From Pseudomonadota bacterium (GTDB lineage Bacteria; Pseudomonadota; Gammaproteobacteria; Burkholderiales; Thiobacillaceae): a stretch of 5,754 nt of DNA. Shown here one piece after another: positions 1,469 to 5,754 of the stretch; position 1 is the first letter of the stretch, and each line of letters begins with the position of its first letter. The stretch covers positions 1,549-7,302 of the forward strand of contig JAJZRT010000182.1 of NCBI GenBank assembly GCA_021802595.1, in the 5' to 3' direction. The notes under the pieces are model-generated. The model was given only the letters and a program-made list of their open reading frames with translations, had not been told where the DNA came from and did not search any database. Position numbers and translations under genes: made by a program.

Positions 1469-1588
1469 CTTAGGGATGCGCTGAACAAGTTGATTCCGCT
1501 CATGGTTCGACAAGCTCACCACGAACGGAATCAACAACTTGCCGTTCGTCCTGAGCTTGTCGAAGGACTTGTTCAGCGCTTCCTTAGC
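1469..1588. repeat. Composite palindromic repeat, two core copies in opposite orientation
   Basis: The outer arms 1469-1490 and 1567-1588 are inverted copies of each other, 22 nt with four mismatches; the 12-nt part CGCTGAACAAGT at 1479-1490 pairs exactly with 1567-1578. An inner pair, GTTGATTCCG at 1489-1498 and its complement at 1526-1535, forms a second hairpin around an inverted core copy (1504-1528). A direct core copy fills 1542-1568. That 27-nt core is identical, on the opposite strand, to 5510-5536. The structure could fold as a large branched hairpin in RNA. It lies between two + strand genes and could act as a transcription-attenuating or mRNA-protecting element, but there is no T-run typical of an intrinsic terminator. 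The family resembles REP-like or MITE-like short repeats. No transposase is present here. Confidence 0.8.
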
Positions 1589-1601
1589 GATCCACACAGC
1601 G

Positions 1602-1649
1602 CTTCGACAAGCCTGTCCTGAGCTGCGTCGAAGGGCTCAGCCCGAACGG
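1602..1649 (-). repeat. 48-bp long-form repeat, copy 1
   Basis: Its reverse complement aligns with 2368-2415 over 48 bases with five mismatches. It includes a core palindrome (CTTCGACAAGCCTGTCC and CTGAGC with GTCGAAGGGCTCAG), so it can form a hairpin. It is a longer relative of the 27-nt core found at 1542-1568, 3384-3410 and 5510-5536. It lies just upstream of the cyclophilin promoter. Confidence 0.75.
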
Positions 1650-1669
1650 TCTTGTAAAAAACAGTTGTG

Positions 1670-1727: not shown

Positions 1728-2429
1728 ATGACCCGCCCTTCCCTGTTTTCCGCCGCGCTGTTTCTCGGCGCGGTCCTGCTCGGCATGTCCGGTTGCGGCG
1801 CCAGCGAGCCCGGCAGGCAGACCGTCTCCACCGCCCCGGCGGCCGGCCAGCCCGCCAATCCTCGCGTGCTGATCGAAACCAGCAAGGGCAACATCACGGT
1901 CGAGCTGTTTCCCGGAAACGCGCCCAGGTCGGTGGCGAACTTCCTCGGCTACGTGAAGAGCGGTTACTACGACGGCACCGTGTTTCACCGCGTGATCCCC
2001 GGCTTCATGATCCAGGGCGGCGGCATGACGCCGGACATGGCCGACAAACCCAAGGGCGCGCCGATCCCCAACGAGGCGGACAACGGCCTGAAGAACCTGC
2101 GCGGCACGCTGGCGATGGCACGCATGGACGCGCCCGATTCGGCCACTTCGCAGTTCTTCATCAACGTCGCGGACAACGCCTTTCTCGACCATCGGGGCAA
2201 GAGCTACGACACCTGGGGCTACGCCGTGTTCGGCCAGGTGGTCGGCGGCATGGACGTGGCCGACGCCATCGTCGCGGTGCCGCGCGGCAGCCGCGGGCCC
2301 TACGACGATGTCCCCCTCGATCCGGTGGTGATGAAGCGCGTCACCGTGCTGCCGGAAGCTGCCACCACCGTTCGGCCTGAGCCCTTCGGCGCCGCTCAGG
2401 ACAGGCCCGTCGAAGGCCAAAACAAATAA
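1728..2429 (+). CDS. Cyclophilin-type peptidyl-prolyl isomerase, predicted lipoprotein
   Basis: This 233-residue protein isomerises X-Pro peptide bonds. Residues 1-22 form a signal peptide ending GMSGC, with C23 as the likely lipidated cysteine (M at -3 is an imperfect lipobox). A Pro/Ala linker follows, then the cyclophilin domain from about 46 to 212. [13 protein letters not shown] (86-98) supplies R88, F93 and Q96, and [14 protein letters not shown] (141-154) supplies F144. F152 stands where eukaryotic cyclophilin A has the cyclosporin-contact tryptophan, as usual in bacteria. It should act in the periplasm, anchored to a membrane. I chose the ATG at 1728 because of the signal peptide and GGAG seven bases upstream; the open frame extends further up only through repeat DNA. 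Residues 214-233 are encoded by a dispersed repeat rather than by cyclophilin sequence. The permease gene follows after 8 bp. Confidence 0.9.
2368..2415 (+). repeat. 48-bp long-form repeat, copy 2, inside the cyclophilin 3' end
   Basis: It aligns with the reverse complement of 1602-1649 at 43 of 48 bases. It is read in frame as the cyclophilin tail [16 protein letters not shown], then QNK and the stop follow. It contains inverted GAGCCCTTCG and CGAAG/CTCAGG-type segments capable of pairing. It ends only 22 bases before the likely permease start, so it occupies the gene junction. Confidence 0.75.
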
Positions 2430-2437: not shown

Positions 2438-3364
2438 CTGTCTGCCGCCACCAAACTGCTGCTGCTCGGGCTCACCGCGCTGCTGGCTCTGGCGCTGGGC
2501 CTGGCGGCCGGCGCATTGCCGGACGACCATGCGCTGGCGCTGCAGATCCTCACCGAACTGCGCGGCCCCCGCGTGGCGGCGGCGTTCGCCTGCGGCGGCC
2601 TGCTGGCGCTGGCCGGTGCGCTGATGCAGACGCTGTTCCGCAACCCGTTGGCCGAACCCTATCTGCTCGGCATCTCCGGCGGCGCCGGTCTGCTGGCGCT
2701 GCTGGGCATGGCCGCCGGGCTGGCGTGGCCATGGGTGTCGGCGCTGGCATTCGCCGGCAGCCTGCTGGCGCTGGGTCTCGCCGCCGCGCTCGGCGGCCGC
2801 CTGTTGGCGCGCGACCACACACCGCTGCTGCTCGCCGGGGTGATGCTGGCGGCGGGCTTCGGCGCCCTGATCGCCCTGGTGCTGAGCGTGGCGCCGGCCG
2901 AGCGCCTGCCTGGCATGCTGTTCTTCCTGATGGGCGACCTGGCGTGGACCGACCAGCCGGCATTGTTGTGGGCCGCACTGCTGCTGGCTGTCGCCGTCGC
3001 GCTGGGGCTCTCGCGGCGGCTCGACGTGTTGCAGCTGTCGTCACTGAAAGCCGCGTCGCTCGGCGTCGCGGTCGCGCCCACGCGCTGGATGCTGTTCGGG
3101 CTGGCCGGCGCCTGCACCGCGCTGGTCGTCGCGCAGGCCGGCAGCATCGGCTTCGTCGGCCTGATGGTGCCGCACGCGCTGCGCAAGCTCGGCTTCGCCG
3201 GCCACCGCACCCTGCTGCCCGCCGCCGCACTGGCCGGCGGCAGCCTGCTGGTGCTCGCCGACGCGCTGGCGCGCACCGTGATCGAACCGCGCGAACTGCC
3301 GGTGGGCGTGCTGACCGCGCTGCTCGGCGTGCCGATGATGCTGTGGCTGCTGCGCAGGCCGTGA
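2438..3364 (+). CDS. FecCD/BtuC-family ABC transporter permease (cobalamin, haem or siderophore uptake)
   Basis: This is an inner-membrane permease of a type II (BtuC/FecCD) metallophore importer, 308 residues if started at 2438 (family about 320-350). The signature G60-x3-Q-x3-RNPLAEPYLLGISGGAG (60-84) is the BtuC/FecD motif. GFVGLMVPHALRKL (238-251) is the cytoplasmic coupling region that contacts the ATPase. ELPVGVLTALLGVPMMLWLL ends the last helix. About eight to ten hydrophobic helices can be seen. The frame is open from 2381 but has no ATG or GTG and only one TTG (2516), which would delete helix 1 (about 7-26). I therefore prefer CTG 2438, supported by AAGG at 2428-2431, with low certainty on the start itself. 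The matching ATPase gene begins at 5181, separated by the interpolated segment. The substrate cannot be decided from this window; cobalamin is one good candidate. Confidence 0.85.
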   Translation: MSAATKLLLLGLTALLALALGLAAGALPDDHALALQILTELRGPRVAAAFACGGLLALAGALMQTLFRNPLAEPYLLGISGGAGLLALLGMAAGLAWPWVSALAFAGSLLALGLAAALGGRLLARDHTPLLLAGVMLAAGFGALIALVLSVAPAERLPGMLFFLMGDLAWTDQPALLWAALLLAVAVALGLSRRLDVLQLSSLKAASLGVAVAPTRWMLFGLAGACTALVVAQAGSIGFVGLMVPHALRKLGFAGHRTLLPAAALAGGSLLVLADALARTVIEPRELPVGVLTALLGVPMMLWLLRRP

Positions 3365-3380
3365 GAGAACACTGAACAAG

Positions 3381-3425
3381 TTGCCGTTCGTCCTGAGCCT
3401 GTCGAAGGACCTGTTCGGCGTTTCC
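3381..3425 (+). repeat. 45-bp copy of the short-form repeat after the permease gene
   Basis: It matches 1539-1583 at 41 of 45 positions; within the 27-nt core (3384-3410) only one base differs. The flanks CTGAACAAG and CTGTTCGGCG can pair around it, and GTCCT/AGGAC inside the core can form a smaller hairpin. It lies 16 bp after the permease stop and marks the left end of the interpolated segment. Confidence 0.8.
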
Positions 3426-3456
3426 CGAAGTCAGGCTTGCAGGGCCGCAGGCACAT

Positions 3457-3505
3457 TGTTGGAGTATTTGACAACACGCCCGGCATGTTGTTATCGTCTC
3501 CAACA
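3457..3505 (+). promoter_or_regulatory. Promoter inside a 49-bp dyad, probable autoregulatory operator of the toxin-antitoxin pair
   Basis: A perfect -35 TTGACA (3468-3473) and a -10-like TATCGT (3492-3497, 4/6) are 18 bases apart. Both lie inside one long inverted repeat centred on base 3481. The outer arms TGTTGGAG (3457-3464) and CTCCAACA (3498-3505) pair exactly, and the inner arms ACAACA (3471-3476) and TGTTGT (3486-3491) pair exactly. In all, 18 of 24 position pairs are complementary. The right arm ends on the A of the toxin ATG. Transcription starting six or seven bases after the -10 would begin at or next to the ATG. The arrangement fits repression by the antitoxin, whose winged-helix domain is the obvious ligand; binding itself is inference. 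Confidence 0.75.
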
Positions 3506-3801
3506 TGAAGGCTGTCCAGCTCGTCTCCACGCGCATCGCATACTCCGAGTCGGCTTTCGCGGAACTCGTATTGTGGCGGCTTCCCAAACCCATCGAAGGA
3601 TCGGTCCATGGCTTCAAGTATCGGCTTGCTTACGTCGTCCATGGCGTATGTGTTCTCCGTTACGACAACGAAGCGGGGAAAGGCGATCACAGACATGTTG
3701 ACGGAGCCGAGCGCGCCTACGCCTTCACAACGCCCGAGCAACTGATTGCCGACTTCCAACATGACATTGAGAGGTGGAACGATGAAAACCGTGACGCTTG
3801 A
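3505..3801 (+). CDS. tumE: TumE-family toxin (DUF6516-like) of a type II toxin-antitoxin pair
   Basis: This 98-residue protein has the layout I recognise as the TumE/DUF6516 toxin family. An N-terminal strand pair (about 3-25, ending LVLWRLPKP) is followed by HGFKYRLAYVVHG (35-47), then the family hallmark YDNEAGKGDHRH (53-64) and a C-terminal helix TTPEQLIADFQHDIERW (75-91). The polar GKGDHRH cluster (K59, D61, H62, R63, H64) is the likely active site. TumE proteins are described as growth-inhibiting toxins, reported as ribonucleases as far as I recall. The toxin gene precedes the antitoxin gene, the less common order. There is no Shine-Dalgarno sequence before the ATG, and the start lies at the edge of the operator, so the mRNA may be leaderless. 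The stop overlaps the antitoxin start by 20 bases. All hallmark residues are present, so it appears intact. Confidence 0.85.
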   Translation: MKAVQLVSTRIAYSESAFAELVLWRLPKPIEGSVHGFKYRLAYVVHGVCVLRYDNEAGKGDHRHVDGAERAYAFTTPEQLIADFQHDIERWNDENRDA

Positions 3802-4129
3802 CGTCCGCTCGCCTTCAGACGCGATGACGGACTTCGTGCAGGCCTGGAAGACGGGCAAACCCCAGCGATCCGCCCGCATCAGCTTCGCCACGCCCGAGCT
3901 GCTCTGGCGAGTACTTACCGCCAAGCGCTGGGAGCTGCTCAAGGCCCTGTGCGGCGCGGGCCCCGTCTCCATCCGCGAAGCCGCCCGGCGCGCCGGGCGC
4001 GACGTCAAGGCCGTGCACGGCGACGTCACCGCCCTGCTGGAGGCCGGCATCCTCAACCGCACGCCGGAGGGCAAGATCGAGTTCCCTTTCGATGCGATCA
4101 AGGTCGAGTTCATGTTGAAGGCTGCGTAG
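3782..4129 (+). CDS. tumA: TumA-family antitoxin, winged-helix DNA-binding protein
   Basis: This 115-residue protein matches the family annotated as HVO_A0114-type DNA-binding protein or TumA antitoxin. The N-terminal part (1-40) contains the characteristic RISFATPELLWRVLTAKRWELL (32-53). Residues about 49-100 form a MarR-like winged helix: GPVSIREAARRAGRDVKAVHGDVTALLEAGIL as helix-turn-helix, then the wing RTPEGKIEFPF. I chose the ATG at 3782 because GAGG at 3771-3774 is seven bases upstream and the family starts with MKT-V; the longer open frame from 3746 is less likely. It overlaps the toxin gene by 20 bp, so translation is coupled. It should neutralise TumE by binding and repress the dyad promoter at 3457-3505. 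It is visibly more GC-rich than the toxin gene. Confidence 0.87.
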   Translation: MKTVTLDVRSPSDAMTDFVQAWKTGKPQRSARISFATPELLWRVLTAKRWELLKALCGAGPVSIREAARRAGRDVKAVHGDVTALLEAGILNRTPEGKIEFPFDAIKVEFMLKAA

Positions 4130-4141
4130 GTTGCCCCGGAT

Positions 4142-4564
4142 GTGATCTGGAGCTTGTTAAACAAGGATCGCCTTAAGCATGCCCAAGCTGGCAAGTGGGG
4201 GCTATACAGAAACGATACGCTGGACATGGCGGATGCCATCCTCCGGACACACCGCGATGCACGAGGCTTACCGTTTTATCTTGAGGTTTGCTACTTGGAT
4301 CTGAACAATCCGAGCAATAGTGGCTTGATTGATGATCCGAAACTTTTAGAAGAATTTCCGCCATTTTCCATTGACCCAAACGGCATGGCACCCATGGTGT
4401 TGGCTTTGGCCGCAAAGTCGATAAAGTTGAGCGGCCAGTCGCCTCAGCAAGTACAGACCGATTTCTTGGCACGTTCCGCCAAGCTCCATGAGTCGCTGCG
4501 CCTACCATTGTCCCCTGAGAAGGCATGGACAATGATTAGTGACGCGCTTGCAGAGGTCTCATAG
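4142..4564 (+). CDS. Hypothetical protein, possibly 5'-truncated
   Basis: I do not recognise this 140-residue protein. It begins at GTG 4142 (VIWSLLNKDRLKHAQAGKWGLYRN) and has no membrane helix or signal peptide. The central part FYLEVCYLDLNNPSNSGLID looks like a strand followed by a loop, and the C-terminal half (about 85-140) is predicted helical. The frame directly continues that of the antitoxin after its TAG, 12 bp upstream, and there is no convincing ribosome site before the GTG. It may be translated by coupling, start later at ATG 4226, or be the 3' remnant of a longer gene whose front was lost when it was joined to the toxin-antitoxin pair. Base composition is clearly lower in GC than the importer genes, which suggests foreign origin. 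Function unknown. Confidence 0.5.
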   Translation: MIWSLLNKDRLKHAQAGKWGLYRNDTLDMADAILRTHRDARGLPFYLEVCYLDLNNPSNSGLIDDPKLLEEFPPFSIDPNGMAPMVLALAAKSIKLSGQSPQQVQTDFLARSAKLHESLRLPLSPEKAWTMISDALAEVS

Positions 4565-4623
4565 GCTGGCACCTAAGATTCAGCCGCCTCATTTCCTCCA
4601 AAGTTAAGGCACAGGAGGCATAA

Positions 4624-5091
4624 ATGAACTGGTCGCAGGTGGTTGCCGGGCTTGCATCTGCCATTTTCGTGTCAGTGGTTACGGCAGTGCTTACGGTCCG
4701 ACTGGCGCTTCGCCGTTTCTACTCTGAGAAATGGTGGGAACGTCGGAGCGACGCGTACTCGGAAATCATCAGGGCGTTACATCATGTGAGAGAACATGCC
4801 GATACCAACTTACAGTTCGCTCTCAGAGACAAAGACCTGCCTGAAGAAGGTGATGCGCGCCTCACAAAGGAGATGCAGGAAGCCATCGGCCAACTTCGAT
4901 TGCACAGGGATCTCGGAGTTTTCGTGATCTGCGATGAAGCAGTAGATTTGCTAAATGTCTTATTCAAAGAACTGGACGATTCGACTAAGACCCAATGGTG
5001 GCAAGAGCATTTGGAATTGAAAATTATGGCGGTCGACAAATGCTTGAAGGAAATGCGGCGGGTTGCCCGCAAGGAGTTGAAAGTTGACTAG
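4624..5091 (+). CDS. Hypothetical single-pass membrane protein with helical cytoplasmic domain
   Basis: This 155-residue protein starts MNWSQVVAGLASAIFVSVVTAVLTVRLALRR in outline. One N-terminal membrane helix (about 5-25) is followed by a basic stretch and the motif RFYSEKWWERRSDAYSEII (31-49). The rest is charged and strongly helical (about 45-150), with coiled-coil-like spacing in the parts around LTKEMQEAIGQLRLHRD and LELKIMAVDKCLKEMRR. Positive residues after the helix place the domain in the cytoplasm. AGGAGG at 4613-4618, five bases before the ATG, is the strongest ribosome site in the window, so the gene is probably real and expressed. I have an impression of similar small hypothetical proteins with KWWE-x-[KR]-x-[DE]AY elsewhere but can name no function. 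GC is low for this genome (near 38% in parts), consistent with horizontal gain. Confidence 0.75.
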   Translation: MNWSQVVAGLASAIFVSVVTAVLTVRLALRRFYSEKWWERRSDAYSEIIRALHHVREHADTNLQFALRDKDLPEEGDARLTKEMQEAIGQLRLHRDLGVFVICDEAVDLLNVLFKELDDSTKTQWWQEHLELKIMAVDKCLKEMRRVARKELKVD

Positions 5092-5180
5092 ATGTGACCT
5101 ATCCGCCGCCCCAGTGGGACGCCGGCAAGCCGGCTTCGCGCTCCTGAGCTAACACGTTGTCTCTCACTAGCAACCTGTCC

Positions 5181-5754
5181 ATGAGCCTGACCACCCAGCA
5201 ACTCTCCCTCCACGCCGGCACCCGCACGCTGGTCGATGCGCTCGACCTCGCGCTCGAACCCGGCGAAGTGCTCGGCATCCTCGGCGCCAACGGCGCCGGC
5301 AAGTCGACGCTGCTGGCGGTGCTGGCCGGGCTTACCCTTCCCGCGTCGGGGCAGGTCATGCTCGACGGTCAGCCGGTGGCCGGCCTGCCGCCGCTCACCC
5401 GCGCGCAGCACATCGGCCTCTTGCCGCAGGGCGACGAAGGCGAGTTCTTCGGCTGCGTGGCCGACTTTGTAGCGCTTGGGCGCTACCCGTTCAGGGAAAC
5501 ATTGAACCCGTCCTTCGACAAGCTCAGGACGAACGGCATGGCAGACCTTGCCCACTGTCTCGCCGCCTGGGAACTCACCGACCTCGCCCACCGCCCGCTC
5601 GGCACCCTCTCCGGCGGCGAGCGCCAGCGCGCGCGGCTGGCGCAGCTCGCGGTGCAGGCGCCGCGCATCGCGCTGCTCGACGAGCCGCTGACCCATCTCG
5701 ACCCGGCGCACCAGGCCCGGCTGCTGGCGTGGGCACGCAGCGAGGCCGACGCCG
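5181..5754 (+). CDS. FecE/BtuD-type ABC transporter ATPase (3' end outside window)
   Basis: The first 191 codons of an ABC ATPase run open to the right edge. Walker A is GANGAGKST (35-43), the Q-loop is LLPQ (Q83), the signature is LSGGERQ (143-149), Walker B is IALLDEP (163-169) and the D-loop is THLD (171-174). FVALGRYP (96-103) is typical of FecE/FhuC/BtuD ATPases that power BtuC/FecCD permeases, so its partner is the permease at 2438-3364. All catalytic residues seen are intact; the H-loop lies beyond the window. The ATG at 5181 is chosen because MSLTTQQLSLHAGTR gives a normal family N-terminus. No good ribosome site or promoter is visible in the 89 bp before it. Residues about 106-119 come from a dispersed repeat inserted in frame between GRYP and the signature, in a region that varies in the family. 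Confidence 0.92.
   Translation, partial: MSLTTQQLSLHAGTRTLVDALDLALEPGEVLGILGANGAGKSTLLAVLAGLTLPASGQVMLDGQPVAGLPPLTRAQHIGLLPQGDEGEFFGCVADFVALGRYPFRETLNPSFDKLRTNGMADLAHCLAAWELTDLAHRPLGTLSGGERQRARLAQLAVQAPRIALLDEPLTHLDPAHQARLLAWARSEADA
5495..5538 (-). repeat. Short-form repeat copy embedded in frame in the ABC ATPase gene
   Basis: Its reverse complement matches 1540-1583 at 39 of 44 positions, and the 27-nt core (5510-5536) is identical to 1542-1568. Read in the gene's frame it encodes [14 protein letters not shown], at residues about 106-119. The frame is open on both sides and the signature and Walker B motifs follow normally. Confidence 0.85.

Follow-up and report, generated by a model that had tools for sequence, protein, structure and literature searches.

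Palindromic repeats that are translated in frame in unrelated genes have been described in Rickettsia, where, according to PMC10969869, the elements measure about 150 bp. In addition, overlap or fusion with ORFs is documented among MITEs for QMITE1 and QMITE2 of Coxiella and for ERIC, and the truncated copies of these elements are presented as REP-like (PMC5896051, PMC10969869). Intragenic REPs have also been described; for instance, the REPs in the recB genes of X. campestris and X. oryzae differ from each other and occupy approximately one site, as reported in PMC3733652, an article in whose main text the word Thiobacillus does not appear. Regarding insertion sequences of the IS5 type, YTAR is given as the typical target duplication (PMC10359306).

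In this work we analyzed a stretch of DNA of 5,754 nucleotides (hereafter, the window), in which a repeat copy lies inside the coding frame of an ABC ATPase gene. We consider, with a probability of roughly 0.8, that positions 5495-5538 are what remains of a 110-bp IS5-type MITE that inserted into the gene and later lost part of its length in frame, in a loop that has been used repeatedly in this way. This reading draws on the sequence match, the ends and duplications of the element, its reading frame, the low confidence of the insert in a modelled structure and the scattered distribution of the inserts among relatives.

Results

According to ORF and Pfam analyses, the window includes a dehalogenase-type gene (PF00702), represented by its end and probably coding for a P-type ATPase, together with FixS-like, DsbA-like, cyclophilin and FecCD permease genes. 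It also contains a TumE/HVO_A0114-like pair, two ORFs that match no Pfam family and an ABC ATPase gene, of which the start is present. The latter (5181..5754, + strand; PF00005, E 2.3e-27) begins with the ATG at 5181, in an ORF free of stops between 5157 and the window end, and runs past that end, so that its far end cannot be judged from the window. The motifs GANGAGKST, LLPQG, LSGGE and LLDEP are present, and the Walker A, Q-loop, signature and Walker B elements, as well as the type II importer fold, identify the product as the ATPase of a heme/B12/siderophore-type ABC importer. Ten homologues carried an organism name among the matches listed, nine of them from Thiobacillus or Hydrogenophilales and one from an unclassified gammaproteobacterium. 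The homologue P0001, with 271 aa, has the same insert and is complete. The FecCD permease (2441..3364, + strand; PF01032, E 1.9e-70) is presumably part of the same transporter, and in many relatives its gene adjoins that of the ATPase directly. In the window, about 1.8 kb (3365-5180) lie between both genes, with the TumE/HVO_A0114-like pair and the two ORFs without a Pfam match. This gap ranges from 0 to 3281 bp in relatives, where the pair was found again, whole or in part, in loci L095 and L096; it is a second hotspot in the operon.

A 30-base core pattern of the repeat matched the window at 1540-1569 (- strand), 3382-3411 (- strand) and 5509-5538 (+ strand), with no match in any of 200 dinucleotide shuffles and none expected by chance. 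The copy at 5495-5538 is complementary to 1540-1583 at 89% and to 3382-3426 at 87% (over 45 bp). A first-pass annotation, made from the sequence alone, had proposed that a dispersed palindromic element entered the ATPase gene at 5495-5538 and remains there in frame; the core match, the shuffles, the open ORF and the PF00005 match bear this out, and the coordinates were well chosen, since the inverted end of the element begins with the base at 5495. The intergenic copy at 1474..1583 (no strand assigned) is an intact MITE of 110 bp with inverted ends, for which the comparison of flanks revealed a target duplication TTAG on the left (1470..1473, + strand) and on the right (1584..1587, + strand), and it folds into a single long hairpin (z -9.8 versus shuffles). 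Immediately 3' of the permease stop codon there is a 61-bp deletion derivative (3365..3425, no strand assigned), whose flanks, GTGA and CGAA, differ and whose fold was no better than those of its shuffles.

The copy in the ATPase gene (5495..5538, + strand) begins exactly at the left terminal inverted repeat (5495..5511, + strand), which reads GGAAACATTGAACCCGT where the family has GGAARCGCTGAACAAGT, spans the REP-like palindromic core (5514..5536, + strand; TTCGACAAGCTCAGGACGAACGG) and ends at 5538. Thus, 44 bp are kept and the right 66 bp are lost, and the remnant is translated as (R)-14 residues-(M). At the left junction the inverted end is preceded by TCAG (5491..5494, + strand), a degenerate copy of the target site; in the DNA of L095 and L098, TTAA stands at the same place and the inverted end follows. 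The cyclophilin ORF contains a related REP-type repeat (2367..2415, + strand), 90% complementary to another in an intergenic position (1602..1650, + strand). The C-terminal tail of the cyclophilin (2367-2429) is mostly coded by this repeat, making it a second protein of the window with repeat-coded residues.

An alignment-based genome scan gave 80 loci, nearly all from distant relatives, of which L001 provided the lead to the right family. Matches to the 110-bp element were present in 21 of 117 genomes of the family (E up to 1e-12), some of them 95% identical over the full length. In genome G465, with 108 core matches, 12 pairs of inverted ends of about 17 bp were found around core copies (the window has two such pairs), and many further core copies have one end or none. 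Six G465 loci (L141, L147, L148, L195, L210 and L217) harbor longer forms of the MITE, with 184-222 bp between the ends and extra internal palindromic or 24-nt modules. The full-length set of 110-bp elements comprised 39 distinct copies, taken from loci within L139-L292 and from the window. The 4-bp flanks were identical in 22 of them, and both identical and of the form YTAR in 19, a perfect YTAR duplication being missing in the other 20; as a background, YTAR occurs at a fraction of 0.0015 (0.15%) of the start positions in the G465 loci. An earlier and cruder pass over 30 end pairs, some of them mispaired, had given 4 identical flanks and 15 agreeing at no fewer than three bases. The inverted ends and the YTAR duplications indicate a MITE with an IS5-type duplication; judging from its sequence, the element is best read as a short multicopy MITE without a transposase gene, of the kind that IS5-type transposition leaves.

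One alternative to be considered is a REP or REPIN moved by a RAYT tyrosine transposase, with inverted ends that would be incidental. The core is indeed REP-like and palindromic, REPs inside genes have been described for several bacteria (PMC3733652), and genes with PF01797 are present in 7 of 16 repeat-carrying genomes. However, no PF01797 match was found in the other 9, among them G465 with its 108 core copies, and a core copy was near only 1 of 20 PF01797 loci (within the fetched stretch). Furthermore, inverted ends and a larger target duplication, absent from IS200/IS605-type elements as described in PMC2817692, are both present here, and GTAG is missing from the consensus, although it occurs somewhere inside 12 of the 39 single copies. 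We consider this alternative unlikely and retain the IS5-type MITE, for which the transposase would have been provided in trans. In the search for it, 3 of 15 genomes showed PF05598 matches and 2 of 12 showed PF01609 matches, and none of 6 loci had a pair of MITE ends (L294 showed one single end match). Scanning with the end pattern gave no pair at insertion-sequence distance among the matches listed, in genomes made up of many contigs. Plasmid searches yielded one partial match and none, respectively.

The element plus one copy of the target measures 114 bp, that is, 38 codons. In the frame that begins two bases within the copy of the target, 38 of the 39 full-length copies are open in the forward direction, 23 in the reverse one and 23 in both; for the remaining four frames the open copies number 1, 0, 0 and 4. 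A consensus of 19 copies gives a 38-residue peptide in the forward orientation and another 38-residue peptide in the reverse one. As 114 bp is a multiple of three and a stop-free frame is available, the gene that received the element would have stayed open. The forward form is found nearly complete in P0014 and P0121, at the same loop of the ATPase, and the reverse form in P0006, in others and in the window copy; the target duplications of P0014 and P0121 are putative, as deduced from the protein sequence.

The peptide of the element was detected in 14 proteins, including P0014, and 12 of them were inspected. The left end is intact in 10 of the 12, and all ten have F, T, L, V, P or A immediately before K/R-E; these residues are NYT-encodable, as would be needed for a YTAR target in this phase. 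Internal insertions were observed in the predicted proteins P0014, P0121, P0125 (HepT-like, with its domain in two stretches), P0129 (GpsA, the glycerol-3-phosphate dehydrogenase of Nitrosomonas sp. Is79A3) and P0124 (RseA-type, with the element directly past the N-domain). In the last three, the peptide is almost complete and is situated within or next to a domain of the protein. Seven of the 12 have the element at the predicted N-terminus, where the true start may lie further in, so that these cases are weak evidence for translation. Most copies look intergenic, since among 18 full-length copies taken from other loci 13 had no ORF reaching 30 codons on both sides; of the 138 core hits in the G465 loci, 12 qualified as weak candidates for a location within a long ORF.

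We also considered whether the open forward frame is itself selected. Under a uniform null there was one new-stop site versus 7.1 expected, with none of 400 draws as low, and an earlier version with 19 copies agreed. When the variable sites were fixed, P was 0.028 (for one of six frames), and the 38 of 39 open copies compared with 30.7 (P 0.022). Neither synonymous counts nor codon positions gave a coding signal in the element. The effect being strong only under the less careful null and weak with the variable sites fixed, this claim was dropped.

Concerning the size of the loop, 49 residues separate GRYP from LSGGE in the window. Among 38 genes compared, the window included, this segment has 36-37 residues in 30, and the other eight, the window among them, have 44, 45, 45, 45, 49, 49, 53 and 92. 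The real gain is therefore of 12-13 residues, with an added peptide of 15. The first-pass annotation had estimated a gain of about four residues, which holds in comparison with FhuC but not with the insert-free orthologues; its suggestion that the repeat mainly replaced loop residues is not supported, given the net addition of 12 to 13 codons relative to the latter. The segment of 92 residues belongs to L137, whose loop contains seven tandem copies of a 24-nt unit (PFATAQDK and close variants). As regards shorter inserts of the FDAAQGRPF type, the possibility that they derive from the same repeat module was supported by the DNA for L097 and L137 (19/24) and not supported for L107 and L112; that of L122 is borderline (16/24), with the insert-free L128 scoring 17.

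The AlphaFold model of P0001 has a mean pLDDT of 89.4, and its insert (residues 120-134) is located after the first helix past the Q-loop and before the signature, with residues 126-134 below 50. The five best solved-structure matches of this model include HmuV, BhuV and BtuD. An earlier run, based on an alignment of close relatives, gave a pLDDT of 41.6 and was discarded. A low-confidence insert in an otherwise intact modelled ATPase supports tolerance by an exposed flexible loop, in agreement with the tolerant loop proposed from the sequence at first. Selection on the inserted peptide for tuning the transporter might be invoked, given that inserts recur in one loop and that the tandem units of L137 are found in it; however, neither the length nor the frame nor the sequence is constant among the inserts, the model assigns low confidence to most of the insert, and 112 of 165 rows compared have no insert. 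We judge such a role improbable, and the inserted peptide is probably tolerated rather than useful.

It should be noted that the window gene is truncated at the window end, which could be taken as a sign of an assembly or annotation artefact, or of a dying gene; an expressed pseudogene had in fact been named as one alternative when the insert was first noted. Outside the loop, the 9 pairs that include a MITE-bearing gene had dN/dS values of 0.16-0.24 and the 2 insert-free pairs values of 0.16 and 0.20, the value being 0.25 in the pair L137-L120, which includes the tandem insert. By this measure the insert-bearing genes are under purifying selection and are not pseudogenes. Such inserts are furthermore found in several separate records, besides the complete P0001, and an artefact or a decaying gene is extremely improbable.

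To follow the inserts among relatives, 165 rows were compiled from 120 listed proteins (of 7807) and 45 genes of the loci and the window, 155 of them being distinct. They comprise 16 rows with a MITE-type insert, 36 with a second type assigned by a length rule (which also placed there P0054, whose insert is not repeat-like), 1 with another insert and 112 without any. A more careful tree was built, with the loop removed, from 64 rows that were chosen by us, the test group having been named after the first tree. On this tree, 13 changes were needed for 15 MITE rows, with 8 imposed by branches of good support, and shuffled labels gave as low a number in 193 of 500 cases. A single clade was rejected for the 15 rows (p-AU 9e-44), for the 13 rows without P0014 and P0121 (1e-8) and for P0014 plus P0121 (0.027). 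In several lineages this loop contains the element, which is found there in either orientation, and one origin by descent is rejected.

A single ancestral insertion, inherited and then eroded, lost or spread by gene conversion, without recurrent insertion, deserves attention in this context. The left junction and several quirks are common to inserts across clades: SKLIPPM and ERNQL are shared by P0014 and P0121, and NPSFDK by the window, P0001 and P0005; besides, the tree of 165 rows is poorly resolved. Against it, opposite orientations at one site require two insertions or an inversion, and the changes counted on the careful tree are no more clustered than shuffled labels. We regard a single insertion as possible, but less probable than recurrence. 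That P0014 and P0121 share their quirks and yet sit in different clades points to recombination, and we conclude that there were at least two insertions, or one and an inversion, with exchange between lineages. The recB genes of the two Xanthomonas species, with their distinct REPs at nearly one site, are a precedent (PMC3733652). A native YTAR site was evaluated as the cause of the hotspot and found no support: the 45 genes contain 25 YTAR sites, and only 3 have one in the loop, namely L095 and L098 (in both, their own left duplication) and L111 (at another position of the loop), so that the insert-free alleles examined do not show the target site.

Discussion

The course of events that we propose would have begun with an intact element with GGAARCGCTGAACAAGT ends entering a YTAR site within the codons that follow 'GRYPF', with duplication of 4 bp. 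The gene would have stayed open, gaining a cassette of 38 residues in the flexible loop between the Q-loop and the signature. In the lineage of the window, the right side of the element (about 60%) may have been lost later, in frame, leaving the 44 bp observed today, while in relatives full-length, shortened and lengthened versions would have arisen in the same loop through repeated insertion and recombination between alleles. A more speculative extension, which we hold as rather doubtful, is that the element could be shaped for life inside genes, as a two-way, frame-neutral 38-residue cassette that keeps the same codon phase in both orientations, restores the downstream frame and maintains its forward frame stop-free even outside genes. 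One loop of an ABC ATPase would then be a testing ground where such cassettes are taken up, shortened, lengthened in steps of 24 nt and exchanged among species.

The intact intergenic element, the near-full in-frame insertions and the worn remnant form a series centred on a single defined loop of an enzyme that is well understood. Thus, small mobile DNA can alter the length of a protein with the gene unbroken, and whether selfish DNA contributes protein sequence that can be used, a long-standing question, becomes directly testable. MITEs in frame with genes are known; the present MITE family and the repeated use of one loop look new, and no description of the family appeared among the literature matches listed for the peptide, the core and MITE subjects, a scope outside which most subscription journals lie.

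In comparison with the known systems, the analogy with the palindromic elements of Rickettsia, drawn in the first-pass annotation, is appropriate for the behavior, that is, in-frame translation of a palindromic repeat, read here from predicted ORFs. It need not extend to identity: by their description, those elements belong to another lineage and are longer, whereas the present one is a MITE with YTAR duplications, for which no more than 12 of the 138 core hits in G465 qualify even as weak candidates inside ORFs. With GTAG/CGTC REPs the element shares the intragenic location, as in the recB site of Xanthomonas; it differs from them in a consensus without GTAG and in the presence of inverted ends and target duplications. 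The QMITEs and ERIC resemble it in their fusions with ORFs and in the REP-like aspect of truncated copies, although QMITE2 is described with duplications of 7-9 bp and with insertions at 3' ends in genes of known function. Finally, compared with IS5-type MITEs, the present element has a REP-like palindromic core, one frame that is open, often in both orientations, and a partner transposase that was not found in the genomes searched; it has in common with them the short length, the absence of a transposase gene, the terminal inverted repeats and the 4-bp YTAR duplication, a motif documented in PMC10359306.
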